From Daphnia carinata (taxonomy: Eukaryota; Arthropoda; Branchiopoda; Diplostraca; Daphniidae): DNA of 64,000 nt. This document shows, piece by piece, positions 1 through 55,349 of the stretch (its first letter is position 1; each line of letters begins with the position of its first letter). The stretch lies in contig NC_081335.1 in assembly GCF_022539665.2 (NCBI RefSeq), positions 930,001 to 994,000 of the forward strand. Reading direction: 5' to 3'. The translations under genes and the position numbers were made by a program. The notes below the pieces were generated by a model that had not been told where the DNA came from, ran no database searches, and saw only the letters and a program-made list of their open reading frames with translations.

Positions 1-3000
1 TTGGCACCTTGCCAACACTGTGTTCCAGGTCAGTGCTACCAGATAAATTTATTTTTTTGTCCTTTCTTTTTTTTTTTTTTTTTTTATATATATAAAGCCT
101 GTCGACACTAATGGAGATTCTGCTACTGATGTTGCAAGCTAGACAGAAAGTTGATCCGTGGAGGGCGGCTTCGTTACACAACACCATCATCAAAAGGCCA
201 GCGTTCGTGATGGTCTACGGGCATTTGCCGCCATTTCGACTGATTGTTCTCGATTGGAAACGACGTAAATGTACATTTTTTTTTTTTTTTTTCTGCTTCA
301 TACTTTTCAATTTGAAATGATGGTGGTTTACTGATAGCGCCGACAGCGTCTCTACTGTACGCCCGGAATTGATTGTTGGTGCAGAGCGTGCTTCCGATGC
401 AATAAAAAGTTTCGACAGTATCGTGAGCAGCGGGTTCATAGCTCACGCACCCCAATCAACGAACATCGATCGCCATTACAAAAGTCGATGAAAAAACCGT
501 CCAACGATAAAAGAAAAAATTGATGTCCATTCATTTCTAGCCGACCGTTACGTGTACATTGAAAAAAGAAGTTGACGAAAAGAACAAAAACAACTTTTTT
601 TTTTGTGTGTATGTTCATCCTTTACTTCAACCGATTGGTTCTTTAGCAGCCAGAACAAAAAGGTTCCTGGTTGGCGTCATCTTTGTAAAAAAAAAAAAAA
701 AAAAAAGGAATAATGAAGAAGCCGGACGAAAAGAAAAATGCTGGGGAAGCCAGTCGTTGGACAGAGTTGGATATATCGACCACACGAAAGCGAATTGGGG
801 CAATGTAAAACCGATTGAATGTCATTTTTGTGTTCAATGCAGAGCTTTTGACAATATGCAAAACGGTACGCTCGAATCGATTTTTTTTACATTGAAATTC
901 CACGCAAACAAAATGCGAATAAAAAATTTTTGTACCGACTTCAAGAATTCAGGATCCTTACAATTTACCGAGCGAATTCCATTTCCCCCAGCAATTTTTT
1001 TATTATTATTATGTAATCAAAGAACACGGGGGATCTGTTAAATCAAAATGACATTTATCCTTTTGAATATAAGCCTAGACGAACGAACCCAAAATATAGA
1101 TTAGCATTATCTAGATTATTACATTTCGTTGTCATCTAGTAGTCAGCCCGTAAAGCGAAATTGGCATTTTCCATAACGCTGGCATAGCAAATCACTTTGA
1201 CACAAAAATTCTTTCATTTTCTTTTGATTGATCAACGGCCAGCCCACTCAGGATAATATGGCATCATCCTTCAACATTAAAAAAACGGACTGTTATCTCT
1301 CGTCTATATCTAGGACGAATTGCGAAGTCAGCAACATCACGAAAAGATCAACCACCGCAGCGTGACAGCCAAAAAACTCGTTAGGATAAGGTCCTTCGAT
1401 GATAATAAAAACATCCCCCCCCCCCCCTAAAAAAAATAGAATACTCTCTATATATAGGGATAGAACGCTAGTATTCGGATTGACTGGCTACGGAAGCGGA
1501 TGAAAGTGGCAGCATAAATCCGCTTTATTGGTCGACTTTGAAACATCGATCGCGATACCCAAGGTCCCTGTGATGCTTGCACATCCTTGTGCCGGGAAAA
1601 CCCTCCCGCCGGTATAAAAAAACAAACAAAAAAACTCTGCCATCTAAATTGTCATCAGCGAGAAGAAGGAAAAGAGCCGAATACGACCACTTCCGTTAAG
1701 TACGGTGGCAAAGTTATAAAAAAAAAAAAAAAGCAGTGGAGCCCCAAAAAATCACAGAAACCTCATGATGCCAGTTTGGTATGATCGTTGACGACCTCCC
1801 AATCGACATCGAATTTTCTTAAGAGACGCGCTTCTGAAAAAGACGGGGACGTCAGACAATAAAAGATGAGACGATGCAACTGTTAACACTCTCTCGCACT
1901 TTACTCGACCCAAAGATTAGAAGAGGTAGATTAAAGTGAAAGTGGAGAGAATCCAAAAACTCGTGACGCGTCGATGATCATCGCCCAGATTTGGGTAGAG
2001 ACTCAACACGGGCAAACGAGACCCGCAAACGACGAAAACAAATTTTTTTGGCTTTGATCAAAGCCTTTCTTTTTTGCACTAGCAATACGTGTTTACGTGC
2101 CGCCCTTTGCAGAATATCATTAACTTTTCAGAGGGAAAGGATTTCTTTTTGTTTTTAATCGGTTGATGACAGTGTGGCCGTCCCTCCATTACGAAAAACG
2201 AAAATAAAAAAAGGAAAAAGCAGATGAGATGTCCAAAACGTATCACACGTTTTTTCTTTTCAGCAATGGTCTTCATTGAAAGCAGTTGATTGGTCGCGAG
2301 TGTCTGCAGTTGGAATAAGATTAGTAGACGCACCAAAAAGGTCAAACAAGTCCGCATTTTGCCTTCTTTTGGCGCGTGTACTGGAGAATTCGTTCGTACT
2401 CGTTGGCTGGATTCCATCGCAGGCTATCATCACCGACGCTGTCACTCAGATTGACTATAAGCTCCGTGCAATAGGACGCAGAGATTGAGGGTAAAAAAAA
2501 AAAAAAAAAAAATTCTGCTGTGATGCGCATTGTGTGTGGGTAGTGCAAAAAGCAATAAGAAAAATGATTGAAAGAGCCGGCAATTTTTTTTGTTCGATAT
2601 AAACAACTGAATCCTACGAGGCAAAATATCCTTTGAAGTTTTCCATGGAGGAATAACTGATGCGCGCACTGAAAAATATTCCGTTCGTGATGCGCAATGT
2701 CTATTCGACTATGTGAACTGATACTTTGTCTTATTCACGATCTTTAAAAACACAGTCCTACCTTAGAAGGCGCCAATGGTCGTTGACGATATGTTAGATG
2801 GGCTGTTTGGATATGCTGCGCTGGGACTTGTGCCGATCGACCGTCTTGTCAGAGATGAACAACCGAGTGCTGTATAGATTTCGCCGGGGAAGACGAAGGC
2901 AAGCCACAGGATCAAAAGGGAGCTGCGCGTCTGCGCTCCGCAGTCCCGAAAGATTCTGTGAAACAGCTGATAGAACAACATTTCAACATTAGGTAGGAAA

Positions 3001-3410
3001 TACATAGGCATCCACGTACTATACACATAATAATAATAAAAAAAAAAAAAAAGAAGACATATTTATTTTCTCTTTTACTGGCGTGCGGCTATTATTTCTT
3101 TTATGCTTCTTTCCTTCATATGTTTCTTATTTCTCCAAATCTATCGAAGAACGAGTTTGCTCGCAAGACTGACGTGGTAGCAAGCAAGGGACAATGCTTT
3201 TGTCGTTCTAGATGTAATGTGTGTGTACACTCAGAGAGCGCGAAGAATAAACACACAACATGTAGCGCGAAAATGAGACCCAAAAGAGAAATGTTTGTCC
3301 GCAAGTTCTTCTTTTCCCTTTCACGCCATAACTCCCGTCCGCAGAAACTAATGCTGTATATAACTACATAGTAATACAAAGAGGCTTTCGGATTTAAACC
3401 ATATGATAGC

Positions 3411-3428
3411 TGTGTGTGTGTGTGTGTT
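3411..3428. repeat. (TG)n microsatellite
   Basis: An uninterrupted TG dinucleotide tract, seen directly, with no coding context. Confidence 0.9.
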
Positions 3429-4050
3429 ATTATCACCGTAACCATATTCCATTTCTAGCGCGTACCCAACATCTCATATCCTCTACGTCAATATATAGCT
3501 CCTCCTTTTTCCCTCTTTGCCCAGCTGAATAAGACACCGGATTCAAAAGGATGCGACGCGGCGTATGTGGGACACAATCGAATAGAGTATTAAACTACAT
3601 GAAAGAATAACAAATATAAACAAAAAAAGAAAAGCGCAAAATATATTTACTACGTTAAGCGGAAACAAGAAAAAAACATGTTGTCTCCTATAAAGCAATA
3701 TCTTTTATCTACAAAAAAAAAAAAAAAAAAAAGAAGCGCGGTCTACAACTTTTCCCTTTTCAACATGTCGGAATCTTTCTATTGGATCATTTCCATTTCT
3801 CCTCATCCCACTCCATTCTTTATCGAGTTTTTTTCTTCCTCACTTGATGGAAAATGGAAAGAGAGAATGACATTTATAAAATACCAAGCGACAGAATCCT
3901 GACAAAATCTATTAAAAAAGTACGTACTCGTGGCACATGTTTGGCACTAACAGAGTCGGTCGGTATCAACTTAATATCCATCAAACATTTTTGTTTTTGT
4001 TTTTTTAAACCACTATTTGCAGTTAGAGAAAGTTTCTGTTTAGTACATCA

Positions 4051-4069
4051 CCCCCCCCCCCCCCCCCCC
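4051..4069. repeat. Poly-C run, 19 nt
   Basis: Nineteen consecutive C residues, seen directly. The run is unusually long for C/G in this otherwise A/T-run-rich DNA. Confidence 0.95.
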
Positions 4070-4861
4070 AATCTTTGTTGGCGAAGTGTGTCTACGTGGA
4101 GTGAAAACGAGTAGTCACGTTAGGTTTGCTTTAGTGCATTTCAAACTTTTTTTTAACAGCTCCTGTCTGGGAGCTTTCCTTGTCCGCGCAGCTCCCCGAA
4201 CTTTGATTCCTACCCTTCTTTCTTTTTTTCGCTCTCTATTCTCGCATCGATCCTAGAAATAAAAAATACTTTGGGCTCATTCTACTTTCTCTTTCATGAG
4301 TTCTACTATATCTGCACCGGATAATAATAAAAAAACGAGGCTTACGGAAGAAGATCAATGTGTAGAAAGGCAAAGAGATACAAAAATCAGAAAAAAGAAA
4401 AAGAAAACCAAACACGTAGTCAGCCCTACGAATCAACGTTCCTTGTTGATTTGCCACCCCGCCCCAAAAAATCGTGCTTAGCCTTTAAAGAAGCTGTCAG
4501 CGTAATGTCGATGAAGCTCAACATCAAGATGGACTCGTAATAATAAGTTAGCTAGTAAATCTGGTGACAGAATTCAGTAGGGGCGTTTCAGGAAGAATGT
4601 CCAGAACTGTAGAAAAGCCGCAAGCTGTTGAGCATTGTAAAAAGGAGAAAAAAAAAAAGGATTTGACTGCTGACATACGGACGGATCGATCATGAGATAT
4701 GCATGAAGATGCAAGATACAGACGTATAACACGCGTTCGATTTGCACGAAAAAAAAAAAAACCAAACACGAAGGCTATATAGTTTCAAGTTCTCTTCGAG
4801 ATCCTATTACGTTTAATATCACATTACGCTGCGTCAGTTTTGTAATCCGCATCGGTTGGGC

Positions 4862-4885
4862 AAAAAAAAAAAAAAAAAAAAAAAA
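4862..4885. repeat. Poly-A run, 24 nt
   Basis: One of the two longest homopolymer tracts in the window. It is followed by a short GA tract and no poly-adenylated gene copy is visible upstream, so there is no sign that it is a retrocopy tail. Confidence 0.9.
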
Positions 4886-7106
4886 GAGAGATCAACAGCC
4901 GGCTTCTAACAGTCGCGAGTCACGGGAACGCGAATTTTTTTTTTTTTTTCAACAAACCAACGAGAAATTTACCTGACAGATTGTCGCAATGTCCGCCGAC
5001 ACTAAAGCGCTAGTTGTTTTTGATCTACCGTCCGTCTATGCGACACTGCCGTTGTTGCTGTGGTCAACCGTTAGTCCGCACGAGGCTAAATAAAAAATCA
5101 AAGGATAGTCGAATCTGATGTCACCCAACAGTGAAGCAAGAAAACAGCCACCTTCGTCCTGCTTTCAACTCTATCTCTTCGTATTTCTTTCCGTAAAGTT
5201 CATAGCCGAGCAAAAACTCTTCCCCCTGTCGGCGGAATGATCCAGCTAACTCTCAGCCAAAGCTATATCCTGATCCGGCGCAGTCGTGATTGCCTCTCTT
5301 TTTTCCATTCCCCCCCTTTTTTTGACCTTCCTGTGGTTGGTTTTGGTAGCGATTAAGCCATCTGGCGGTCGAAAACGTAACTACCAACAAAATTTACAGC
5401 CGTAAATGCGCCCTTTTACAATTAGGATTAAGGCATGTTCAAACGTTTTCGTATTGGCTTCCCTTTGCACGAGAATTCTAGAATTGACTCTGGGACGAAC
5501 TGAAAAGGTTGACATGAATTTATATTTCCCAGTCGTTTCGTCGAAGCGCCATTGGCAGAAAACGTTCAACAGCTTGTAGGAAAAAAGAAAGAAAAGTAAC
5601 AAAAAAAAATGTTGCCCTACCTCTCTCAACAGAATGGCAGACACGTGGTTGTTCAAACCACGTAAAAATCAATACCAGACAGAAGTTTTCGATCCAAAAG
5701 TAAAAAAAAAAATGCACAATAAAATAGTTGGTTTCAGTAGCTAGAACGTATCTAATACAACGAAAACCACAAAAATCCAAATGCCACATAATGTAACAAA
5801 AATGTTTCTCTAAAAAATTGCCCTCGGCATTTTGGTATACACAAGATACAAATCGGTACACTAAAAAGTAAAAAAGATTTACCGAGAAGGATGTAGCGGC
5901 ATGGACACTGGTCACCAAGTGTATGGAAGAAAACGGCGGCCATTGGAGTCACAGGTTTGGGCCAGAATGATATGCGACACAAAACAAAGCTGGAAAGCAA
6001 TTGTACCAGGGAAATTGTCTATTCATGCCGAAGTTTAGTTCATCAAAGATCAGTTCACATTTTTTGTTCTTTTTTTTTTAACCATCTGTTTCTTTAACGT
6101 ACAAGTAAAAATGTAAGACGAGTACACAGTTGTGCTCTCTGGCTCTTGCCAACAAAAAGACTAAACTGACCTTATCCGTTTGTGTATGGGCTTGCATTGT
6201 TTCAGTGTCTACAAAGTGCGCGGCAAAACTAAAAACAATTAGATGTGCAACATTGCCTGATTGCAACATTGACTACAGTCAGTAGACATCGATAGATGTC
6301 ACGACTAGTACCATGTACATTACCCATCGGCCCCGAACGGGAACAATAACCACGGGTAAACACACAAAGGCAGGAAAATAAAGTGGAAGAATAGATGTGT
6401 GGGAAAGAAAAAGTGCAGCAAGGGACGTGAGGCCGTGAAAGCTACAGGGGGGGATATCTATTCTTCAATTGGCATCACGTTCCAAAGATGTCTGGAAAAT
6501 ATCTTTTCCCCAATCCTAAAAATCAATAAGCTACATTGAGATTGAATTTTTTCTGGCCCATATTCCTTGAAAAATATCTATATTTATGTAACATAGTACA
6601 GTTTCTTTGTTGTTCCTCCCTTTTTTTTTGTTGTTGTTGTTGTTATTTGGTATTGCAAACGTGAGTCGAATAGCTGCTGCAGCGATCGTTCGGGAATTGT
6701 ATAGAATAGAGCCTATTGCACCATAATAGAAAAAAGAGGAAAATAGCCTTGAGAAAAAAAAAACGTGCAATGGATCTGATGGCAACATACGGAATCCGCA
6801 CAAACGCGCTAATCAAATCGTCAACACGGAACAACATCAGCAGCTTCGGTCAGCGATTTTATTGCCATCTATATAACCTGTAAAAAAAAAATAAATAAAT
6901 CAAATAAATGAATAACTCTGGTGTTATATACCTATATACCTTATATGCCCTAGACATGATTCATTCATTATGTGGATCAAACGAAAAGCGAAACCCACTC
7001 CCCTGAAAACAAGGTACCATTTACGTAACGACCTAAATGTCAAGGGCAAGTTGAAGAGATGAAAGCTAATTACAATCAGCCCAACCCCTATTAACACACG
7101 ACTACA

Positions 7107-7131
7107 TGTGTGTGTGTGTGTGTGTGTGTGT
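7107..7131. repeat. (TG)n microsatellite
   Basis: About 12 TG units in a row, seen directly. Confidence 0.9.
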
Positions 7132-9819
7132 TCCTTAGATGGCAAAAAAATAAAATAAAATAAAAATGTGCGTGCGTCTACGGTACGGGTGTCTCCCCCT
7201 CACCCCCTTCACAACACACGGCAATCGACCCGACAAGAAAAGCGTCGTTATAATATTAGCAATGATGAAGCTCTGTCGTCGTCATCGGTCGCTGCTGGCA
7301 ACTCGCCGCCCGTCGTCATGGCTCTATGTAGTCGTTCGAGATACAATATTTTTCTTTGACATTTTCTTTTTTTTTTTTTTTTTTGTTTATTCCTATCATG
7401 CTGACTGCAATCTTTTCTCCTTTCCATCTATAAAAGCTGTCGGCACGATTCTGCGCCATATTTTCGATCAAAATCATCACATGATGAGATGGGGGGGGGG
7501 GGAGAATAAGAAATTGGAAGGCATGGGTTGTCAAGGATAGGGGGGGGCTTAATACGTTCCTCGTTTGCGTCCCTCTCTCTATCCTTTTTTTTTCTTACAC
7601 CATTGGCACCTTTCTAGTTCAATTGCGTTCGACCCGAATCATTTTTCTTTTGGCCGGCGGCTGAGTAAACAAGCGGGTCGTCTAAAAAGGGAAATCGACA
7701 AGACGAAGAAATCTCATTTTCCTTTCGCTCGTCGATCTGTCTGCGGATGTGGCGAATGTAAAAAAAAAAAAGCCTTCGCCAACTAGTAACGCACAAATCG
7801 AAAAAGCCTGAAAGAGAAATGCTTATTGCATCGGCCAGATATTCAATTTGCCATGGATATTTAATAAAACGAGGCTGGGACGACTGCAAAAATAGGCCCA
7901 CAAATTGCCAATAACACCAAGTAAAATCTTATTGGCGACGCCATTCACCATCACCTCCAACCACTATAAAGCATTGCAGGTTTGTTTTTGCAAGGCGGGG
8001 ATAGTTGAGAAAGAGACGAAGGTGAATTGTAAAAGTGTTATTGCTAAAGGTCGGTTCGCATCTTATCGACTCATCACAACATCAGATCAATAAAAGCCGA
8101 CACAAGAGCCACAGCGTCGCCGTGAGGGCGTCGGGACGTCGCAGGGATATATAATGAAGCGCGTAAAAGAGCATCATTTATATACGAAAAAATGGTTTGG
8201 GGGGGGGATTCAACGCGGTGCTGGTTGTCTATCTATACGAAGATGTTACATTGGCGATGCCACACAAAAAACACGGCTGGAAACAAATCGAAAAAAAAAA
8301 AAATAAGAAAAATGGGACAGTGAAAGCCACAAAAGCCATCAGCGATGATGTTGTCATCGTCGTTGATTTTTTTTTCCCTCTCCGTATTTTCTAAAAAAAA
8401 AAAAATGACGAGAAACTAGATTAGCCAGAGGCGGCCGTCATTGGGTAGGAGGCGCAAGTGTCAAACCAGCAACCCCCTCCCTTCCAAAAAAAAAAAAAAA
8501 CAAGAAAAAATAAAAATGCGACGTGAGAGTGACGGTGATTCCATCAACACGAAACTTCATCCGTTCAGACGTCCAATTAAATATCATTTCAATCTGTTCA
8601 TTTTCTTTTCACTCCAATCGAGTGCCGGTTAGAGTAAAAAACAAAAACAAGCAAATACGTTGAACACACACATACACACACAAAGTGCTGAAAACAATAA
8701 GGCATCATTGTTACGATTGCCCTTTAATAGTTTTCCGTTCTCTCTTTGGCAAAGATGCGCCACTTCTCCGGCAGCCTGTCTGTGTTATAACCGACGGGCG
8801 TTTGTTGGTTGAAAAATGATCGATCCCTCCCCCCCCCCTCCCGCTCGAGAGAAAATAGAAAAGGACAAGAACAGAAGATTGTAGGGGGGAACGGAGTGAA
8901 TTGAGAAGGAAAAGACCGAGCGCAGTATCTTTCTTCGTCGTCTACGTTTACATGTTTGCCAGGGCGCAGTCGACGCAGCATGAAGCCAAAAAAAAAAGAA
9001 GAGGGGGAGAACGTAGCGCGGCGTCGCCGTCCAAGAAGCTGCCTCCCTCTCTGTTCAAAGCAACGCAGGAGAACCCAAGCAATCTCCTCCCTCCCCTGGT
9101 CCCCGTGACGACGACACGACGAACGCCGGTCAACGGACATACTGACAGTAGCCGGAGCTCGATGCGGACGTACCGCGTCTGAGCTAGTGCTTTTTTCTAT
9201 CCAATTATTTATTAGGGGGTTATTTTTTTTTTCTTCTTTTTTGTTGAATATCGTAGCAGACGCGTGCGCGACCACCTGCGCCAAATTTCGCAACAACGAT
9301 ACGCGTTGACGTTAAAAAAGACACACGCGTTATCTACAACTGGCAAGAAAAAAGGAACAATACAAAATCTGGGTGTGCATTTCCTGCTTGTTTTGACGAC
9401 AGAGGAACGGATGAAACAGATGACAGTCCATCTCATTTGTTCTACCTGCCAAAGAAGAGAATTGTGGGGGTCTCTTCGAGACGCGTTTGTGCTGTTCACA
9501 TTCGGGGAAAAAAACAAACAAAAATCAGAGACAAGTTTCGTGCAAAGGCCGAGGTAAAGTTTGACTTTCGATCAGGCGATGTGCTTCTAGCAGCACAATC
9601 AATGCGAGAACTCGTATAACTTTGCCCGTGCTTGTTATCGTCGCAAAACGCGTGTACGCGCTCATCACCTACATTGCAGCAAAGAAGAGTAGTATTGAAC
9701 CTGCCACTAGTGGTGCGCACCCTAACTTGGCAAGCCCAACTCTCTCCGGAAAAAGTGAAAAAAGAAAACGACATGCCCTACGCCTTCACCTGAATCACTG
9801 ACGTTAGTATATACATCCG

Positions 9820-9841
9820 CACACACACACACACACACACC
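9820..9841. repeat. (CA)n microsatellite
   Basis: Eleven CA units in a row, seen directly. Confidence 0.9.
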
Positions 9842-10205
9842 AATCACGTAGAAAAAAAAAGTTCTTTGGCTTTGATAAAGTCATCGACCTTTGCTTCTAT
9901 TGTTGCTTTCCTTTTTTTTTTGGGGGGGGGGCTCTCTCACTTGTATAACTGCTCGTGCGTGTTGTTGTTATTATTCGATATAGTAGTTCCCCTTAGGGTT
10001 CATCTACTTTTGGGTTTGATGTAACCAAAAACGCGAGCGTCTATGCCCGCATTTGAATCTACATCCAACCGGGGTTCTTTTTCTTTTTTTTTTTTTTATT
10101 CCAGTCTCGTATAGAGTTTCTTTTCTTTCCGCATTGACTTGGCAACAAACCGACAAAAATAGAATACAAAAAAAAAAAAAAAGTTGTGGGAAATTGATTT
10201 ACAGA

Positions 10206-10329
10206 CGTGCCGATTCTTCGTGACGGGCGAGGTGCACGTCATTCGTTTGGGTACGGTCAACTTGGGCTCCTCATCTCGTCAATCTTCAATCTTTCTCTTC
10301 ATCATTCTCTCTTTCACCAAACCTACCGG
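10206..10329 (+). other. Exon-like segment with good splice sites, gene unknown
   Basis: A 124-nt GC-richer island is preceded by an acceptor-like TTTACAG and followed by a strong donor match (CCG|GTAAGTAC). One frame is open throughout and can be read as a mixed hydrophilic then hydrophobic peptide, but I recognise no family and see no partner exon nearby. It may be a 5' non-coding exon of a downstream gene, part of an unrecognised gene, or chance. Visible: the splice-like borders. Inferred: any exon role. Confidence 0.2.
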
Positions 10330-11355
10330 TAAGTACTTGAAACTTTTTCTCATTTTTATTTATTTTTTTTTTTCACGCCTTTCATTTGTTTTGTTTTTTT
10401 TTCTTTCTGATGGCGGGGGAGGAAGAGGGAAATGTTATTTTGTTTTAATGCCCTCCGGTGCTGAATCGAATCGAGTGCTAGATATTTGTTACGCTTGGAT
10501 TGATAGCGCAGCTCCTGCGAAACTCTGAGATTTTATACCTCTGTCCTCAGCATTATGCAACGAGCGCAATGCCCACTTTTGCACAACCCAGTTCTGTTCA
10601 ATTCGATCATCAACCGTTGGCGATTCAGAAAATCTTTTGTTTTCCCCAATCAAAATCTGCACGTGTGGCGATCGCTACATTCAAAATTCGCTTTTTTATG
10701 GCCAGTCACGAAATTCGAAACAAACGAGAAAAAAGAGATTTGAGAAAAGAGATTATTCATTACTTCTGATCACATTGAAAGCACAGGTCGTGTGTGTGTA
10801 CAATAAAAGCCTCGGTAACCGAGCCGATTAAAAAGAAAGCACAAAAAAAAAACTGCTGTTACGTAACCACGTTTTGCTCTTTCAAAACGTACTGCCTTGA
10901 ATGCGTACGTAATAACTGTCCCTGCTTTTTCTACAGTTGCCTTATTGTTTAACTCTTGATAAATAATGCTAAACGCTCGGGAAATGAAAGGCCTAAAGAG
11001 AAGAGCGCAAAAAAAAAGACAAAAAAAAAATTCATGAATAATGCAAGCCTTTATACTGTCTGCCCGTCTTTTCCGCCTACTCCAAGTCACGAAAGAGGCA
11101 CGCGTGACTTGCCATTACGAACGGCTGTTCTAAGAAACCCCCCCCCAGAAAAAATGAGGGGAAATAGTGTAAGACAGAGGCAGGCAGAAAAATGAAGGAA
11201 AAAAAAAGTGTAGGCATAAAGAAGATATAATAACAGACGTCTACGATTATAGGGGAGGACAGGAACTTTGTCAATGTATTGTCCCGCTAGAATGAACGCG
11301 CGTGTAAGAGAAAATTGAGATTACCTCGTTCACAATCAACGGCTGCAGAGAGACG

Positions 11356-19601: not shown

Positions 19602-19626
19602 TAAGGTAAAAGAGCGAATTGGGACA
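19602..19626 (+). repeat. Left terminal inverted repeat (including outer TA)
   Basis: Perfect 25-nt match to the reverse complement of 26310-26334. The sequence just outside (TTAAATTCG) does not match the outside of the other end beyond the TA, so the boundary is sharp. Confidence 0.85.
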
Positions 19627-20194
19627 GCGTTTGGGCTAACAGCCTTTCTTATGGGGAATGCGTGTAAAGCCGATCTGCTAATTTCGGACAAAAACCCTAA
19701 TTCATTGGACATTTCTACTAATTCTGGACAGTCTTATTTTTAAAAACTAATTTATTCATTCGATTCAGTTTTTAATTCTGAATCGAATAGCTTAAGACAC
19801 CGAAGGGGGTGCAATAGAAAAATATTGCGAAATTTATGTTTCAACAACCAAAACAATGAGCTGTCAAAACGAGACTTCATTTTTCAGGCCTGGTAACTTG
19901 CAATTGAAATTCACCCCAAAAACATAAAATATGGATTTTTAAAATTGTATTAAACACTTCGCTCTTTAAGTAGCCAATAGGTTATAGGTTCCACGGTAAA
20001 AACGAAAAAATAAATGTGATTCAAATTTTCGAGAAAAAAGCATAAGCACTTCCCGTAAACACGCCGTAATGTCCGAAATTTTAAACCGAAAAAAATTGTT
20101 TTTAACTTGCCCTATCCTACCAAATATCGCCGTAAGAATGTTCGTCGACTGTTTCGTAACAATGCGTTAAAATTTGTTACTAACGTAGACATAT

Positions 20195-23100
20195 ACTATT
20201 CATTTAATTGCTGACTGATTTTAGTCTATTTTCCCATAAGTTCCCATGACGCTAAATCTGGACAGCAGACTATATTGATTTGTATAAGTTGTATACCAAA
20301 AATTACAAAACGTTCATAGCACAGTCATAAGGCTTTGGCGTGCAAGTTTGAAAGTCGGTGGTTCAACCCTACATAGTGACTGATTGTATTTCTTTGCTTA
20401 TATATTTCAGCTCACTCTTTTTAACCATACGAAATTTTTTTTTTCAAGAGAGATTGTTAATTCATTTTAATCATCCAAAGCTAACATTTTTCCAATTATT
20501 ATTACTTCCCTGGGTTCGCCTAAATTCCGGTTATAAATCAGAAACTTCATCACCTTAGCCAGCTTACAATATTCATCTAACCTGTGATTGCAATTTTCAT
20601 ATTTTTTACATAAGCTCCCATGGCACTAATTTGGGACATCAGACAATAAACTAAATAACGTTGGTAGGTTGTGTTTCTATTATCAATCAACAGTGGCTTA
20701 GTCGTACGGTGTTGGAACACCAACTCGAAGGTTGGTGGTTCAATACCAGTTGGGGCTCTTGTGCAAATGTTTTTTTATTACTTGTAATTTTTAATCTTAT
20801 TTTGTGAGATTTTATACAATCGCCAAAGACACTTTAAACAAACGCAATATCAACAAATCTTGGTATTAATAGATTCGTTTAAATGTTCTCCACAGGGCTG
20901 TTAAATATTTTATGAAAATCATATGACAATATTCATCTAACCAATGATTTAAATTCTTATATTTTTTACATAAGCCCCCGTGACGCTAATTTGGGACAGT
21001 AGACTACATACAAGTAGACATGTTATGCTTTTCAATAGTTTTATACTAACCATGGCATAATCGTAAGATGTTGAATTGCCAACCAAAAGGCTAATGGTTC
21101 TATACCGTATGGAAACTATACAACAACTTGTATTTTCTTATTTTTGAATTTTTTCGTATTTGATGAGATATTTTAAAATCAATAAGAACATCTTAAACTA
21201 AAGCAATATCATCAATACTGGTATAAATAGATTCGTTTAAGTTTCCTCTACATGGCTGTTAAATATTTTATGAAAATCATATGAAAATATTTATATAATG
21301 GGTGATTTTAATTCTTATATTTTTTACGTAAGCTCCCGTGACGCTAATTTGGGACAGCAGACTACATAAAAAAAGACATGTTAAGCATTTTAGTTATTTT
21401 CTGTGAACCATGGCAGAGTCGTAAGATGTTCGATTGCCACCGTTAAGGTTAGTGGTTCTATACAGTCAAGGCACTATTTGTAAGTTTCGTTTTCCCCATT
21501 TCCTCATTTTTCCCTTTTTTGTGAGATATTTTGAAATCACTAAAAATACCTCACACTACTACAATATCAATAATATTAGGATCAATAGATACGTTTAAGC
21601 TTTCTCTACATGGCTGTTAAATATTTTATGAAAATCATGTGAAAATATGCATCTAATCGGTATTTGCAATTTTTATGTTTTTCACATAAGGCCCCATGAC
21701 GCTAATTTGGGACAGCAGACTACAAACAAAACGACACGTTATGCTTTTTGATTATACTTGTTAACCGTGGCATAGTCGTAAGACGTTCGATTGCCACTCT
21801 GAAGGATAATGGTTCTATGCTGTCCACAAACTATTTTTAAGTTTCATTTTCCTCATTTTTCCTTTTTTTTGAGATATTTTAAAAGTCACTAACGATACAT
21901 CGCACTACAAAAATATCAATAATATTATAATCATTAGATACGTTTAAGTTTTCTCTACATGGCTGTTGAATATTTTATGAAAATCATGTGAAAATATGCA
22001 TCTAATTGGTAATTGCAATTTTTATATTTTTCCCATAAGGCCCCATGACGCTAATTTGGGACAGCAGACTACATACAAAAACACATGTTATACTTTTTAA
22101 TAATACTTTGTTAACCGTGGCATAGTCGTAAGACGTTCGATTGCGATTCCAAAGGTTAGTGGTTCGATACTGTCACGCACTATTTTTAAGTTTCGTTTTC
22201 CTAATTGCTCATTTTCCTTTTTTTGCGAGATTTTTTTAAAATCACTAAAGATACCTCACACCTCTACAATATCAATAATATTAGGATCAATAGATTCGTT
22301 TAAGTTTTCTCTACATGGCTATTGAATATTTTATAGAAATCATATGGAAATATCCATCTAATCGGTGATTGCAATTTTTATGTTGTTCACATAAGGCCCC
22401 ATGACGCTAATTTGGGACAGCAGACTACATACAAAAAGATATTTTATGCTTTTTAACTACATTTTGTTAACCATACCGTAGTCGTAAGACGTTCGGTTGC
22501 CACCCTGAAGCACAATGGTTCTATACTGGCAACACACTATTTTCAATTTTCGTCTTCCTCATTACCTTATTTTTCCTTTTTTTGTGAGATATTTTGAAAT
22601 CACTAAAGATATCTCACACTACTTCAATATCAATAAAATTAGGATCAATAGATTCGTTTAAGTTTTCTCTACAAGGCTGTTGAATATTTTATGAAAATCA
22701 TGTGAAAATATGCATCTAGTCGGTAATTGCAATTTTTATGTTTTCACATAAGCCCCCATGACGCTAATTTGGGACAGCAGACTACATACTAAATGACATG
22801 CTAGGCTTTTCTGTCAAGTTGTGTTAACCATGGCTTAGCTGTACGACGGTGGGTTACTGACATAAAGGTTGATGGATCTATACCGCATTGGCACCACATT
22901 TAATTTTTTTATTCTCGTTTTTGAAATTTTCCTATTTGGTGAGATATTTTTGAAATCACTAAGAACACCTTAAACTAAAGATATATCAATAATATTGGTG
23001 CCAATTGATTTGTTTTAGTTTTCTCTGCATGGCTGTTGAATATTTTGTGAAAATCATGTCACAATATTTATCTAATCAGTGATCGCAATTCTTATGTTTT

Positions 23101-24815
23101 TTACATAAGCTCCCATGACACTAATTTGGGACAGCAGACTACGTTTTAAGACACATGTTATGCTTTTCAAGATATTTTTATTCAGTATGGCATAATCGTA
23201 CGATGTTGGATTGCCAACATAAAGGCTGAAGGATCTATACTCTATGGGAACTATATATAAGTTTTTTTTTCTTTATTTTTGAATTTTTTGCCATTTGGTG
23301 AGATATTTTGAAATCACTTAGTACACCTTATACTAAAGCAATATCATCAATACTGGTATCAATAGATTCGTTTAAGTTTCCTTTACATGGCTGTTAAATA
23401 TTTTATGAAAATCATGTGAGAATACTTATCTAATGGCTGATTGTAATTCTTATCTATTTTCCATAAGCTCCCGTGACGCTAATTTGGGACAGCAGCCTAC
23501 ATACAGAAAGACATGTTATGCTTTTGAACTTCTTTGTGTGAACCATGGCATAGTCGTAAGACGTTCGATTGCCAGACCAAAAGGTTAATGGTTCTATACT
23601 GTCAAGTCATTGTTTTAAATTTTTTAATCCTCCTTTCCTCATTTTCCCCGTTCTTGTTAGATTTTTTAAAATTACTTAAGATACCTTACACCACTGCAAT
23701 ATCAACAATATTAGGATCGATTGATTCGTTTAAGTTTTCTCTACATGGCTATTGAATGTCATATGAAAATCATGTAAAAATATGCATCTAATCGATGATT
23801 GCAATTCTTATGTGTTTTACATAAGCTCCCGTGACGCTAATTTCGGACAGCAGACTACATACTAGATGACATATTATGCTTTTGAAAAATGTTTAATTCA
23901 AGATGGCATAGTCGTAAGACGTTGGATTGCTAACCAATAGGATCGTGGTTCTATACTGACCAGTCACTACTATTTCATTTTTTGAATTTTCCCATTTTTT
24001 GTGAGATATTTTTAAATCACTTAAGATACCTTACACTAACACAATATAAAAATATTAGGATCAATGGATTCGTTGAAGTTTTCTCTCCATGGTTGTCGAA
24101 TATTTTGTGAAAATCATGTTATAATATTCATCTAATCGGTGATTGCAAGTCTTGTGTTTTTTGCATAAGCTCCCATGACGCTAATTTGGGACAGCACACT
24201 ACATACTAAATGACTTATTATAGTTTTCTGTTACAATATGTCAAGGGTGGCATAGTCGTAAGACGTTGGATTGCCAACCTGAAGAATCATGGTTCAACTC
24301 CAGTTGTAGAAAATCAAAATTTACTTTTGCCTAAATTTTTCACTTTTTATCACATTTTGTGAGATTCTTTTAAATCTTCAATGACGCCTTGAGCTAACGC
24401 AATATCAACAAACACTGGTATCGATAGAATCGATAAGCTTTCCTCTACATGGCAGTTGAATTTATCATGAAAATCATGTGATAATATTAATCTAATTAGT
24501 CATTGCAATTCTTATGTTTTTTACATAAGCCCCCGTGACGCTAATTTGGGACAGCAGACTACATACTAAGTGACATATTATGCTTTTCAAAAAAATTTAT
24601 TAGCCATGGCGTAGTGGTAAGACGTTGGATTGCTAACACCAAATGGTATGGTTCTATACCGACAGTGCACAACATGCAAAGTTCAATTAAATCGATTTGC
24701 AATTTTTCCCTATGTGTGAGATATTTTGAAATCACTAAAGACATATTCAACTAACGCAATATCAACAAACATTGCGATTAATAGATTCATATAAATTTTC
24801 CCTACATGGCTGTTG
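20195..24815 (+). repeat. Tandem array of ~357-bp units, each with a tRNA-like segment
   Basis: The anchor TGACGCTAATTTGGGACAG (with small changes) recurs with its GACGC at 20248, 20622, 20982, 21340, 21698, 22047, 22403, 22760, 23117, 23475, 23833, 24177 and 24537, spacing 344-374 bp and averaging about 357. Other blocks recur in the same order: TCTACATGGCTGTT, TTTTATGAAAATCATGTG, CATCTAATCGGTGATTGCAA and ACATAAGCTCCC. About 60-70 bp after each anchor lies a tRNA-like stretch. A-box-like sequence (TGGCATAGTCGTAAGACG) starts near 20318, 20694, 21053, 21411, 21768, 22118, 22473, 22831, 23188, 23546, 23904, 24248 and 24607, and a B-box-like GGTTCtAtacC follows about 40 bp later. The units are diverged and the array is old. 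The best matches are at 24607 (TGGCGTAGTGG, a full A-box match) and 24289 (GGTTCAACTCC, one base off a B box). Confidence 0.85.
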
Positions 24816-25004
24816 TTGTTTTTCGTTGTTGTTTTACATCATTCTTGATTTTTTCACATTTCGTGCGATATTGTTGAATCGCAGTTTGTAAGAAAAATTG
24901 CAGAAAAAAGAAAACTCATTAAGAATTTTTTACTTCGTCACTATATGTTTACTGCTGTATGATAGTTTCCTAGCGTTCTGCAAAATAGCTATTCAGTTTT
25001 AACT

Positions 25005-25073
25005 TCTATCTGGCATTGAACTGCAGTCCTTATTATCATGAGTCTAATGCTTTACCTCTGAGCTACCAAACTT
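25005..25073 (-). other. tRNA-like sequence (Met-CAT-like), degenerate
   Basis: On the minus strand the sequence reads like the core of a tRNA: a perfect A box (TAGCTCAGAGG), an anticodon-loop-like CTCATGA with CAT at the anticodon position, and a B-box-like AGTTCAATGCC. The anticodon stem does not pair well and no clean acceptor stem is visible, so I read it as a tRNA-derived relic or SINE head in the right arm of the element, not as a working tRNA gene. Confidence 0.5.
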
Positions 25074-25232
25074 CTGATGATAAAACTTCTATTTATAAAT
25101 ACTATTTAAATGTTACCCCAAAATGCAGACAAAAATATTACTTTTTGGGGATTTTATTTGACATGATAGGCAGATATCGTCTATCGTCCCTATAAATACA
25201 TCGAATGTATTAATTAAACACAAGATTATATT

Positions 25233-25302
25233 TGAGCTGCTGAGAATTGAACCTCAGACCTCCGTCTCACCATCCAGGCATTCATCCACTGTGCCATGTC
25301 GT
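25233..25302 (-). other. Second tRNA-like sequence in the right arm, degenerate
   Basis: On the minus strand there is an A box TGGCACAGTGG, then a D-arm-like stretch, and then a B box GGTTCAATTCT with flanking TCTGA and TCAGC that could form part of a T arm. The anticodon loop lacks the expected U33 in the best alignment. It is probably tRNA-derived rather than a functional tRNA. Its orientation is opposite to that of the tRNA-like parts of the tandem units. Confidence 0.45.
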
Positions 25303-26309
25303 AAGATAAAATATGAAAATTACCGCCACCCCACGCCCTTCGAAAACAGTGTCCAGAATTAGCGCTTTCGCTTAAAGCACAATCAAATGGGACTATGACG
25401 AGAACAACAAAACAGTTTTTTTTTATTTTTACTTAAAACCAATGACTTATTAACAAATTTCTTCTACGACAAGTAAAAGGAACATGAAAAGCGTGAAAAA
25501 CCACTGAAATTTCTGAAAAAAACTACAAATAAACTTGTGTCCCAATAAGGGACAACAGTTTCCGAAAAATTTCTCGTTTAGTCACTGGTAAAATGAAATA
25601 AAAAATACGGAATTACCTTTAAAAATATAAAAAGTTTATTGGCTTTGAAGTTACGAAAAAAAAAGTGAAAGAATGTAAATTAATTTTTTAAAAAAGCTGC
25701 GTGGATGAACCCAGACTAGATTCTAAGTCCCTAAAGTATTTTTGCGTTATTTCTATGAAAATGATTCAAAAAACGGATAAATATCCTACATCAATCGATT
25801 TATTTTTGAATTCTGCGTCGATTGATGTAAAAATATTGAAAAAAAGTTTTTTTTTTTTTTTCGAAAATATCTGTGTCCTAAATTAGCGTCGGCTGTCCCA
25901 AATTAGCAGGAATGGGGGTTTTTTCTGGTTTGTAATATTAGAATAATACTAGCATTTAATGGGACAGACTTGTACTTAATCTGTAGAACTTAACTTGCTC
26001 TACTGTTTGATATAATTATTTAATGGGTTTCTTCAATTTTACCTTAGAAATTTCCTGTGCCGTCCAGGTGTCAGCTAACAAATCGTACGCTGTTTAGGTT
26101 TTTCGCCCGCAAGCAAAACGCACAGATTTCAATTACCGTTTTCTCGAATATTGTTATGTTTTAAATTTTGCCCTTTTGATAAATTGCGTAACCCCCCTTT
26201 TAGTTTATAATTCGCCTATAAGATGTCCCAATAGAACCCCTATCAGTATACCATTCGTGATGCGACGAAATGTATGTTTTTTGTCCCAAATTAGCAGGAA
26301 CCGGGCCTG

Positions 26310-26334
26310 TGTCCCAATTCGCTCTTTTACCTTA
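26310..26334 (-). repeat. Right terminal inverted repeat (including outer TA)
   Basis: Perfect reverse complement of 19602-19626. Immediately inside are further reversed copies of the GGGACA motif (TGTCCCAAATTAGCAGGAA at 26282 and again near 25894). Confidence 0.85.
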
Positions 26335-39500: not shown

Positions 39501-40918
39501 TTACCGTTAATAGTCATTGACGACAGCTCTGTTCGTTAACGAAGCGTTAGCAACCATGTAATTGGCTTATACAGGCATGTAAAACACGATTCCAATCGCT
39601 CTTGTTAACGCGACATTCAACTTTTTTCTTCCGGCAAGAGTTTCGGACCCTTCTTTTTGTGTGTGTATATCAATTAAGAAGCAATCTTATTTACCGAGAC
39701 GTGATTAGCTCATTCCGCGCTTGTGAAAACGAACTCATTAGTAAATCAATGAAAATGGAGCTTTGTTGGATGATTGCCAACTTGATAATCTTAACGATTT
39801 TCTTTATTTTATTTTACACAGGAGCGTATTCGTGCCTGAAAGTTAACTTGCTCTTCAAACGCGAGTTCTCCTACTACCTGATCCAGATTTACATTCCCTG
39901 CTGCATGTTAGTCATCGTCTCTTGGGTTTCATTCTGGCTCGACGCCAACGCCGTTCCAGCGCGCGTCTCTCTCGGTGTCACCACCCTACTGACCATGGCC
40001 ACTCAGACGACCGGTATCAACAACTCATTGCCACCCGTCTCCTACACCAAGGTATGCTCACCCAAGAACTTTGATTGCCAAACCGCCAAAGGCCATCCAG
40101 AAAGCAAAAGCAAGCTCTCTCGCGCACAAATAACAGAAGCCCATATACTATTCTATATAGATGTGTGCATCATAGTAAAGCATATCCAAGTTAATGATCC
40201 GTTTTTTCTTTCTTCAAAAATGGAATCACAGGCAATTGACGTTTGGACTGGTGTTTGTTTGACGTTCGTCTTCGGGGCGCTGCTCGAGTTCGCCCTAGTG
40301 AATTACGCCTCGCGATCAGACGCCCACCGAGAGAAATTGAAGAAACAGAGACGTCAATGGGAAATGGAGCGTGAAAGAGAACGTCAAGCGGCTTTCGAAG
40401 CAGCTGCTCAAGCACAAGCGCAAGTTAGCGACAATCGGTTAGACGATGGAATCACAACTTTTGCGTACATGGTATAGAGAAACCGTTCAAAATTCTTATC
40501 TAATATTCGTGAATCTGTAATTGTTTTTGAATTAGAAATCGCTGCCTCGTCTGAGAGGTGAATGTTCGATGGCACTAGACAAACGTTACGAGTTCCATTT
40601 GGCCGCAGGAAGCGGTCATCACCATTCCAGTTGTTGGAGATCGTGGATCTCTAAAGTAAGCGGAATTGCTGGCATTCCAAAGCTTCGTGTTCAGTCATTT
40701 AGTTGAATGGAATATTTAGTCATGTGGACGTATCGTTTTCCTGCCATTTACGTCACATGTGAATTTAATCTTCTTTTTTTTCTCTTTCCATCGAACAGTT
40801 TCCATCCCGCTCCAAGCGCATTGACGTCATGTCGCGCATCATCTTCCCTGTTGTCTTCGCTCTCTTCAACTTCGCTTACTGGGGGACGTACCTTTTCTTC
40901 GAAAACGAAGACGATTGA
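30577..40918 (+). CDS. GluCl: Glutamate-gated chloride channel, paralogue 1 (11 coding exons, 479 aa)
   Basis: Subunit of an inhibitory, pentameric, glutamate-opened chloride channel (Cys-loop family) in the plasma membrane of neurons or muscle. Coding exons: 30577-30662, 32664-32797, 33910-33977, 37542-37611, 38263-38416, 38629-38711, 38777-38911, 39822-40051, 40232-40471, 40536-40655, 40799-40918; all introns GT-AG, phases consistent, total 1440 nt. Signal peptide residues 1-32; [10 protein letters not shown] start of the ligand domain; N-glycosylation site Asn71; glutamate-binding arginines Arg86 and Arg105; Ser198-Tyr199; Cys loop Cys178-Cys192; second disulfide Cys237-Cys248 typical of GluCl and glycine receptors. 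M1 about 259-283; anion-selective PAR motif at 289-291 opening M2 (289-311); M3 321-343; M4 about 454-474. Start chosen because ATG in ACCATGG plus a strong GTAAGT donor gives the same 86-nt phase-2 first exon as paralogue 2. Family assignment is very secure; the first exon is inferred by splice logic. Confidence 0.93.
32536..32663 (+). other. Possible alternative N-terminus of GluCl paralogue 1
   Basis: An ATG at 32536 opens a frame that reads without splicing straight into coding exon 2 and starts with a signal-peptide-like [20 protein letters not shown]. It could be an alternative first exon from an internal promoter. However, the last 40 nt are T-rich and end in GGCGCAG, the same acceptor context as in paralogue 2, so this is more likely just intron 1 read through. 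Confidence 0.2.
36869..36883. repeat. (CA)n microsatellite in intron 3 of GluCl paralogue 1
   Basis: A short CA tract within the 3.6-kb third intron, seen directly. Confidence 0.85.
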
Positions 40919-52900: not shown

Positions 52901-55349
52901 TTACGATACGCATTCAATAGCTACTTTAGGGGGAGAAAGAAAATGTGACCCAAATTGTCAGAACAGCCCAACTATAAAGCGTCTGCGCGTCATTCAATGT
53001 TCGCCCCTGTATTTCGGCATGTCAAACACGGATAAATTTGTTTTTTAAGGAATATAGATTTTACTGGAAGCGTTTGTAGAGAGAAAGGAGAGATACGATC
53101 TCGAGTATCTCTTTGCCAACAGCTCTATTTGTTATCGGCGAATGTTTCCTTTTCATATTGCCATCTCTCTATCTGTTGTTTCTTCCACAGAATTTCGCTG
53201 ACGTTATCGTGCCCGATGAATCTCAAGCTCTACCCGCTCGACCGTCAAACATGCACTCTCTCCATGATCAGCTGTGAGTATATATCAAATGCGCAGTCTT
53301 CAATTCAATGCCTCTCTGGTTTGTAGTACTACGCTGACGATATACTTTGAATTTCCATTAAAATGACATTCCCCCAAGTTAGACTTCTTGGAAGGGAATC
53401 GTTTTCGTACCAAATAAAACAATCTAAGGCTATTGTGCCATGGGCCAAGTAAAACAATTTTGTTTCGGTTACCACTGCAAGTACGAAATTTATTTTGAAT
53501 TGAAGTATATCTTGTAAGAGGTACGAAAGAGAAGAAAGCTTCTTTTGCCAGACACGAGCTCTAGTACAGTTACGTCATACTTGAAAATTGTGTTATGATT
53601 AAATTAGATGGATGGACTACCGAAGACCTGGTCTTCCAGTGGAAGCAGATTGATCCTGTTCAAGTGGCGAGAAACATGCATCTTCCTCGTTTCATCCTCG
53701 AGAAGTTCCAGACTGATTTATGCAACAGCATAACCAACACAGGTACAACGCATTCATAGATAACGAACCCTAAAAGGTCACAGCGACATGTTGCTCTGTC
53801 GGTTTCATTCGATGTAAATTCATTTGTGCTGAGCACATCTAGCAGCTCTTTGTCGTTCAGTAATTTATGCGTGAACTATACAATAGGCCGTAACGTGTTG
53901 TCGAAGTAATCGTATGCTAATCCATTCCATGTTGATTAAATTACCTTTTTTTGTGTGGCGTTGAAATCAAGTCTATAGAATAGAAAAAGAAAAATCTATA
54001 TCGTCACTAAACAAGACATGTGAAATCAAAAAGACAGCTGACGGAGGTTTCAACTAAAAGAAAAAAAAAGCGATCAATAAAATCCAGATGGGTTTGACAG
54101 TTGAATTTACTACACCAGACAGTAGTCGCCCAGCAAATGATTGAGCTGAATCTCATTTTTGTTTGGTGTTGGGAGATTGTAAATAAGACGATTTCAGAGT
54201 ACGTCGGTATCATGTATTAATTGGGTAGTCTGTTGCCTACAGGATAGTCAATAACGTCTCTCATAATAGGATGATGATACCGAGAATTTCTTTTGAATTT
54301 AACACGGCATATTTCGTGTTTTGATGCAGGCGAATACTCGTGTCTGAAAGTGAACCTGCTCTTCAAACGCGAGTTTTCCTACTACCTGATCCAGATCTAT
54401 ATCCCCTGCTGTATGCTGGTCATAGTCTCGTGGGTTTCATTTTGGCTGGATTCGAATGCCGTTCCGGCTCGAGTCTCACTCGGAGTCACCACTCTGCTGA
54501 CCATGGCCACTCAGACCACTGGCATCAATAACTCGCTCCCGCCCGTCTCATACACTAAAGTAATAACAAACTTATTACGTTTTTTGTCTAAAAAAGAAAT
54601 ATATCCTGGATTCATTTATAACATCGAATATATTAAAAACAAACACTTGCTTTGCTTCCGAAACAATAGGCCATCGACGTATGGACGGGTGTTTGCTTAA
54701 CATTCGTGTTTGGTGCTCTGCTAGAGTTCGCTCTGGTCAATTACGCGTCTCGTTCAGACGCTCACAGAGAGAAGCTCAAGAAACAAAGACGTCAATGGGA
54801 AATGGAGCGAGAACGGGACCAACAAGCGATGGTAATGGAGGCCGCTGCAGCTGCGGCCGTCGTGGAAAGCCGCATGGACGACGGCTCGACTACGTTTGCC
54901 ATGGTAACTTTTTTAGCCTTAACGAGTTAACGATAAAAAAATCCCATAGTTGCTTGTAGCAATAGGTCGACCTCCTTTGACGCTTGGTTTACATAGCAAC
55001 GTAATGACGACAACCTTTACAGCCTGCAATGGCTTTCTTTAGTTGTCGAGGCTCCCTTAATTATTTATTTTCTTCTTCTTTATAGAAGCCGTTGCCACGG
55101 TTGAGGAACGACGGTATTACGTTGGACAAGTCACGCCCTTTGCATTCGTCATATGATTTTCATCTCGGCATCCGGAGCTCTTCGGTGGGTAACAACTCCA
55201 ACTGTTGGCGATCATGGATCTCCAAATTTCCGTCGCGCTCCAAACGCATTGATGTCATTTCTCGCATTATCTTCCCTGTTATGTTCGCCCTTTTTAACCT
55301 GATCTACTGGTCCACCTACCTCTTTCGCGAAGGAAGCGAAGAAGAGTAG
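49922..55349 (+). CDS. GluCl: Glutamate-gated chloride channel, paralogue 2 (10 coding exons, 481 aa)
   Basis: Second GluCl subunit, 9 kb downstream of the first on the same strand. Coding exons: 49922-50007, 50552-50673, 51195-51262, 51777-51846, 51911-52064, 53191-53273, 53608-53742, 54330-54559, 54670-54903, 55086-55349; 1446 nt, GT-AG introns, phases 2,1,0,1,2,1,1,0,0. Signal peptide from [18 protein letters not shown] to about residue 31; ligand domain begins [10 protein letters not shown]; Asn67 glycosylation site; Cys loop Cys174-Cys188; second disulfide Cys233-Cys244; M2 begins at the PAR motif (285-287); M3 317-339 with the conserved Gly323 of the avermectin site; M3-M4 loop with an [11 protein letters not shown] charged helix and an Ala-rich run; short C-terminus REGSEEE as in insect GluCl. 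Splice positions match paralogue 1 exactly, but the last two exons are fused. Very secure family call; start supported by exon-1 length identity (86 nt) between paralogues. Confidence 0.95.
50221..50250 (+). repeat. Perfect C-rich/G-rich hairpin in intron 1 of GluCl paralogue 2
   Basis: CCCCCACCCC is followed by a 10-nt A-rich loop and then GGGGTGGGGG, its exact reverse complement. In the pre-mRNA this would be a very stable 10-bp stem; as DNA, the G-rich half is also G-quadruplex-prone. It lies about 210 nt after the exon-1 donor. No function is known. Confidence 0.8.

Follow-up and report, generated by a model that had tools for sequence, protein, structure and literature searches.

The stretch of Daphnia carinata DNA analyzed here is 64,000 nucleotides long (NC_081335.1, positions 930,001 to 994,000, assembly GCF_022539665.2; the window, whose numbering is used below unless a copy or contig is named), and it contains, at 19602-26334, an element bounded by a perfect 25-bp inverted repeat, TA included, which reads TAAGGTAAAAGAGCGAATTGGGACA at one end and as its complement at the other. 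We report that this element belongs to a DNA transposon family dispersed in the genome, and that other members with the same ends carry a transposase. The interior is mostly a tandem array. Tandem Repeats Finder (TRF) calls a 358-bp period with 11.3 copies at 20800-24815, and a conserved motif, located as a 22-mer with up to six mismatches allowed, marks 13 units over approximately 20077-24815, of which the first is diverged. No stop-to-stop frame of 110 or more amino acids is present in the window copy. The initial annotation had described a perfect 25-bp terminal inverted repeat (TIR) with TA edges around a tandem array and no visible transposase; its coordinates are exact, TRF recovers the array, and the frame search agrees with it. 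The features are listed below; the shuffle counts for tRNA-like stretches refer to 300 dinucleotide shuffles per unit, for which the reference set was 12 distinct tRNAs from this genome.

19602..19626, plus strand: left TIR, TA + 23 bp; the same or nearly the same end in 17 other copies
19677..19690, plus strand: left subterminal motif copy, GCTAATTTCGGACA (motif search)
20077..24815, plus strand: tandem array, 13 units of ~358 bp each (TRF, motif positions, and alignment of 12 of the 13 units)
20252, 20626, 20986, 21344, 21702, 22051, 22407, plus strand: 22-mer motif starts, units 1-7
22764, 23121, 23479, 23837, 24181, 24541, plus strand: 22-mer motif starts, units 8-13
20316..20366, plus strand: tRNA-like stretch of the diverged first unit (5/300 shuffles reach its score)
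20693..20741, plus strand: tRNA-like stretch after the motif, example unit (4/300 shuffles reach its score)
24810..24901, no strand: spot without a counterpart of the 3.2-kb transposase segment of copy L053a (element alignment)
25244..25300, minus strand: tRNA-like stretch of the mirrored right-end module (0/300 shuffles; score 14-19 in 8/8 elements)
25350..25363, minus strand: mirrored motif copy, TGTCCAGAATTAGC, two mismatches (motif search)
25874..25907, minus strand: two more mirrored motif copies, 20 bp apart (motif search)
26282..26295, minus strand: mirrored motif copy adjoining the right TIR (motif search)
26310..26334, minus strand: right TIR; the last 100 bp of the element match 32 genome places

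A dispersed family with TA duplications

The genome searched comprises 108 Mb in 106 contigs. The TIR 22-mer (pattern GGTAAAARMGCGAATTGGGACA, no mismatch) occurs at 59 sites, versus 0 for the reversed control, and 32 of the 59 pair convergently, i.e., 16 neighbor pairs less than 20 kb apart, among which the C93 pair sits in a duplicated block and two C7 pairs duplicate each other. The first 100 bp of the element have at least 40 genome matches (40 of 59 candidates scored). We compared 18 two-ended copies, i.e., the window copy and 17 others (denoted by L numbers), with lengths from 3.9 to 13.0 kb. Their TIRs read TA(A/G)GGTAAAAGAGCGAATTGGGACA or a close variant, TA is found at both edges in 17 of the 18, and the flanks, compared by BLAST among these loci, are unrelated except for L041 and L051, both of which lie in members of one gene family. 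This is a large family of YYTT/KAPEYY repeat-protein genes (147 matches; C9, C1, C101, and others). At the right end of L041, the bases adjoining TA depart from the usual TIR. Five copies (window, L040-L043) are only 1 to 14 substitutions apart over approximately 6.7 kb, with a single substitution between L042 and L043.

The insertion of L041 inside a multigene family provides an empty site: its flanks, joined with a single TA, give an uninterrupted reading frame, and query bases 4-302 of this junction align to 299 bases of a paralogue (C9:3069020-3069318) at 86% identity with no net insertion or deletion. This empty site is by paralogy, not by allele; for the copy on C70, the joined flanks matched only C70 itself across the join, so that no allelic empty site was found there. 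The initial annotation had suggested a genome search with the element ends, which indeed returned many copies with the same ends, TA edges, and different array lengths, and an empty site from another strain, for which the single TA at joined flanks was obtained from a paralogue and not from a strain. Its proposal of a non-autonomous inverted-repeat family that has recently been spreading is borne out.

Not every end match represents a separate insertion, because outer flanks are shared. One outer flank (ending tata/TAGGG) is common to 11 of 18 left ends fetched in one set, as well as to the C93 ends, and a duplicated block consisting of the element left end and array with this same outer flank is found on C9, C32, C37, C54, and C93. 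Blocks repeat at 0.16-0.56 Mb and 9.83 Mb of C9 and on C32, C37, C54, and C93, in places 14-17 kb apart; the region is perhaps heterochromatin. In the C93 stretch, the sole duplicated block fetched whole, copies in inverted and direct orientation form a mosaic together with retroelement-like fragments. Four places on C7 (258157, 512126, 758332-771075, and 2091962) have the same flanks around the same element copy and are a segmental duplication. Counting all 40 left-end matches as independent insertions is ruled out by these shared outer flanks and by the C7 duplication. Copies L048, L056, and L051 contain further inserts, namely a second pogo-like DDE_1 element and two retroelements, one Gypsy-like and one BEL/Pao-like, which were recognized in the frames by eye.

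Transposase-bearing relatives and assignment to pogo

Three two-ended copies, L050, L051, and L053a, have transposase exons on the minus strand between the array and the right end. In L050 and L053a, HTH_Tnp_Tc5 (PF03221) scores 28.4 and 26.3 bits (Pfam cut-off 22.2) and DDE_1 (PF03184) scores 78.9 and 87.4 bits (cut-off 22), respectively, and the DDE exon of L051 is 99% identical to that of L050. L053a has a 409-amino-acid open frame with D195, D307, and D343, i.e., DD35D, with 35 residues between the second and third D (the residues were picked by eye within conserved blocks). The best named match of the transposase exon is from D. magna (83%), and no meaningful relative of the 409-amino-acid frame was found by sequence among solved structures. 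The three transposase-bearing copies measure 7.3 kb, where little of the array remains, 10.2 kb, which includes a foreign insert, and 10.5 kb.

The window element aligns to L053a in two parts, 1-5209 to 1-5226 and 5300-6733 to 9067-10498, the latter at 79% identity. Positions 5842-9066 of L053a (3.2 kb) have no counterpart in the window copy; since this part is left uncovered and the right part resumes at 9067, the window copy is without the transposase segment. L055 and L056 are without it too, their right parts starting at L053a 9011 with 97% identity.

The family has the characters by which pogo elements are recognized: TA duplication, an HTH_Tnp_Tc5-type DNA-binding domain together with DDE_1, and a catalytic triad within DD29-56D (here DD35D). 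Because this transposase is found in copies that share the ends and the array, the superfamily is pogo; the terminal sequence, which the initial annotation did not recognize, can in this way be given a superfamily name. Within the IS630-Tc1-mariner group, the pogo superfamily (Tigger, Passer, pogo, Fot) shares with the present family TA, TIRs of up to 40 bp, HTH_Tnp_Tc5 plus DDE_1, and DD35D (PMC7386202). The available part of that survey distinguishes four TIR types and gives DD29-56D, a length range of 1.2-5.2 kb, and, in most families, TA (PMC7386202). At approximately 10.5 kb, the present family is about twice the surveyed length, a range that is descriptive and not a definition, and it has an internal array of units with a TIR-like motif, which goes unmentioned in the same part of the survey. 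Pogo elements are known in the genus from PogoA1-A3 of Daphnia pulex (PMC2884549); compared by description only, these come with no mention of arrays in the part of that paper available (PMC2884549).

The array units: TIR-like motif and tRNA-like stretch

Of the 13 window units, 12 contain a 14-mer motif, GCTAATTTGGGACA, with no more than one mismatch, and the copy in the first unit is more diverged. The units have the motif in the orientation of the copy next to the left TIR, and the right part of the element has it four times in reverse, matching the right TIR. The TIR counterpart of the motif reads GCGAATTGGGACA and differs from it by a gap and a mismatch. Conservation across 12 aligned units peaks in the block around the motif (0.97-0.98 vs a mean of 0.81). 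The best TIR match within a unit lands on the motif in 13/13 units, and in 9 of the 13 at most 9 of 500 shuffles, which preserve base composition only, are as good. The motif is probably a transposase binding site or derived from one, as its likeness to the TIR and its orientation suggest. A 12-bp transposase site reportedly lies within pogo TIRs, judging by the title of a 1999 paper by Wang et al.

Approximately 55 bp beyond the motif, read in the motif's direction, is a tRNA-like stretch. The best tRNA match falls at unit place 235-305 in 12/12 units tested. Its score is reached by at most 4 of 300 shuffles in six of the 12 units and by 0 for the consensus; in five units the number is 14-28, and u07 cannot be told from shuffles (229/300 reach its score). 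Units u06 and u07 match just the 3' half of a tRNA. At plus-strand motif sites in eight of the 18 elements, the downstream sequence outscores the upstream for tRNA likeness at 58 of 67 sites, with z >3 at 29 of the 67. The mirrored motif approximately 970 bp from the right end (4.0 kb in L051) is likewise followed by a tRNA-like stretch in 8/8 elements, scoring 14-19 vs 6-9 upstream in all eight, with z >3 in 6/8. The motif approximately 430 bp from the right end (3.5 kb in L051) has no tRNA-like stretch in 8/8 elements. The right-end motifs of L051 are farther from the end because of its insert.

These stretches are not tRNA genes: ARAGORN and Rfam at its gathering threshold detect 0 in the window, and tRNA genes in the array were rejected as a candidate since neither program detects any at normal thresholds. 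At 80% thresholds ARAGORN makes 9 calls vs 1-8 in 15 shuffles, which is too weak alone; the best Rfam tRNA-model score is 18.1 bits in one unit, below the gathering 29, and there is no tRNA-model match at E 10 or better in eight other loci. The stretches are best described as probably tRNA-derived, on the basis of a collinear likeness at a fixed unit place that is not significant for every unit. They resemble relics with A- and B-box-like parts, by the box consensus. A further stretch at 25025-25100 (minus strand) is weakly tRNA-like (11/300 shuffles) and is not claimed, and weak Rfam matches to DGCR5, 6A, mir-392, and mir-2329 were regarded as chance hits.

Array units are inherited by position, and the array is old. 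The window copy has 13 units, L039, L044, and L058 have 12, L055 has 14, L053a has 15, and shortened or interrupted copies have 2-12; this is the variation in array length between copies that had been predicted. In L039, L044, L058, L055, and L053a, most units fit the window unit of the same rank far better than any other, and unlike units are only ~0.6-0.9 alike (second-best matches). L039 and L044 have one unit fewer and an apparent u3/u4 hybrid, and in L053a the u8-u10 block is duplicated, whole-unit differences for which unequal exchange would be a simple explanation.

Interpretation and alternative readings

In the reading that we favor, to which we assign a probability of roughly 0.85, the window copy belongs to a pogo-superfamily family of large elements (up to ~10.5 kb), is non-autonomous, was recently mobile, and has an amplified, probably transposase-binding end module. 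Briefly, a pogo transposase from the relatives would mobilize the window copy in trans; the motif, which is found near both TIRs and about once per unit, would be the transposase site or a derivative of it; the left-end module of motif and tRNA-like stretch would have been amplified into the array by unequal exchange; and the array would now be carried by transposition, the best-preserved copies spreading 12-15 such sites each. The mirrored right-end module suggests that motif plus tRNA-like stretch was once an ordinary end module. The larger number of sites could give a higher transposase capture or could be merely tolerated.

Several observations weigh against this reading. L043 is without TA at its left edge, which together with the right end of L041 hints at imprecise ends. 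The 409-amino-acid frame of L053a may contain an unspliced intron and is a predicted gene. L050 has lost its array almost wholly and keeps both ends and the transposase exons; therefore, the array is not needed for the element to persist, and this copy argues against a strict need for it. In 4 of the 13 units, 37-275 of 500 shuffles do as well as the TIR match, owing to the gap and mismatch mentioned above. The lower divergence of the motif between subfamilies (2.9% vs 7.8% in the rest of the unit, over 90 unit pairs) speaks for the reading, but the pairs are not independent and the value for the motif is biased downward, since units were located via the motif with up to six mismatches; moreover, the 23-bp windows of lowest divergence have their start 5-12 bases upstream of that of the motif, whose own rank is 14/336.

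It is tempting to go further and see in the array a selected field of sites for transposase binding that has inverted counterparts at the right end and is accompanied by Pol III (RNA polymerase III) box-like sequence, whereby the transposase or a domesticated relative would be recruited to 12-15 sites and CENP-B-box-like monomers would be carried around the genome; judged from sequence, we regard this as a tentative proposal that falls clearly short of even odds. CENP-B derives from a pogo/Tigger-like transposase, and the CENP-B box, a component of alpha satellite, is similar to pogo TIRs, according to the available parts of PMC7325037 and PMC6947457. The pogo-type element here similarly has a TIR-like motif in nearly every array monomer; the comparison concerns the arrangement of the motif in monomers, by analogy, and not a sequence likeness between motif and box. 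What we consider new is a TIR-like 14-mer in nearly every array unit, followed by a tRNA-like stretch, inside a pogo-type element; the titles and abstract openings listed from the openly licensed literature gave no pogo element with an internal array and no tRNA-like array in a DNA transposon. To our knowledge, the origin of once-per-monomer TIR-like sites in satellites has so far been inferred only indirectly. In the present pogo-type family, which was active recently, the element itself comes close to the arrangement of CENP-B satellites, and relatives that carry a transposase exist in this genome; binding, excision, and growth of the array are therefore directly testable. If the selected-field proposal is true, the family would represent a still active intermediate stage in the proposed descent of CENP-B-type satellites from the ends of pogo elements. 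The family is also an example of a DNA transposon that spreads a multi-kilobase tandem array by jumping, not by array growth.

Slightly less probable still is that the array is a passenger, i.e., an ordinary tandem repeat, its monomer derived from a tRNA, was at some time captured by the transposon; the motif would then resemble the TIR by chance or merely by descent from the end of the element, and its conservation would be due to gene conversion, not to function. The tolerated loss of the array in L050 and the gapped TIR match, not significant in 4/13 units, would be expected under this explanation, and the first half of the unit is also fairly conserved, another 12-bp bin being only 3.0% diverged. 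Against this, divergence drops sharply at the motif (the two 12-bp bins covering it have 1.6% and 2.9%, the remaining bins 3.0-13.4%), the motif holds the TIR orientation on both sides of the element, the mirrored module of motif and tRNA-like stretch is present at the right end in 8/8 elements, and the units are not homogenized, which argues against strong conversion.

We think it unlikely that a free satellite DNA is at present arising from the element, as happened with Tetris. Tetris of Drosophila virilis is a foldback transposon with TIR-220 repeats, dispersed and with a varying number of internal repeats (PMC4079207, as far as its text was available). It resembles the present family in being dispersed, in its inverted repeats, and in the variable number of tandem repeats inside it, and is a precedent for internal arrays and satellites (PMC4079207). 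In the same available text, Tetris has 8-10 bp duplications, repeats within long TIRs, no coding capacity found, and kb-size free arrays (PMC4079207), whereas the family here has TA, a 25-bp TIR, an array on the left side only with one mirrored right module, transposase-bearing copies, and no free satellite among the 100 exact motif sites listed of 171 genome-wide. Of these 100, 94 are within 10 kb of an element end, five are at 10.1-12.4 kb, and one (C5:6196721) stands alone; no long free array is among them, and the remaining 71 could contain one. A whole-unit genome search gave 295 matches, about half of them listed. Consistent with satellite formation are the varying unit number, 12-15 in better-preserved copies and down to 2, the recurrence of the left-end and array block with the same outer flank on five contigs, and six listed motif sites at C7:280136-283210 with no exact TIR adjoining and the nearest end found 9-12 kb off, which are a truncated copy or a free short array. 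These points are opposed by the preserved unit order across copies, by the proximity of the 94 listed sites to element ends, and by the C93 block, which is a mosaic with retroelement fragments and not a pure array. The earlier suggestion of an element in the act of building a satellite finds no support in the kept unit order, the 0.6-0.9 likeness of units, and the position of the listed sites.

That the transposase in L050, L051, and L053a belongs to a separate nested pogo element, and not to the family itself, we consider very improbable. L051 does contain a second, different pogo-like insert, but the transposase region is collinear into the family's own right end in all three copies (L053a 5873-10498 with L050 and, around one insert, with L051, through to the right TIR), and of nine genome places where the DDE exon is at least 68% identical, three are within two-ended copies and five more are within ~15 kb of a family end, with one (C70) outside a nearby element. 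Finally, a chance inverted repeat or a local inversion around an old satellite, which the initial annotation had named together with an absence of other copies as grounds for giving up its view, is refuted by 59 exact ends genome-wide, unrelated flanks, TA edges, and the empty site.

Other observations were made along the way. Tandem arrays of tRNA genes are found at C2:247413-266766, C6:4931301-4955748, and C1:8861140-8878400, with periods of approximately 1.13, 1.94, and 1.91 kb, respectively (63 of 10460 candidates scored). In the window, 58070-58957 (minus strand) encodes a PTYKPTHKP-rich repeat protein coincident with short tandem repeats at 58386-58727. For one host protein encoded in the window, just two relatives turned up, in D. 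sinensis (63%) and D. magna (68%). Judged by eye, the stretches 39551-40477 and 54278-54700 (plus strand) are ligand-gated chloride-channel-like and near copies of each other.

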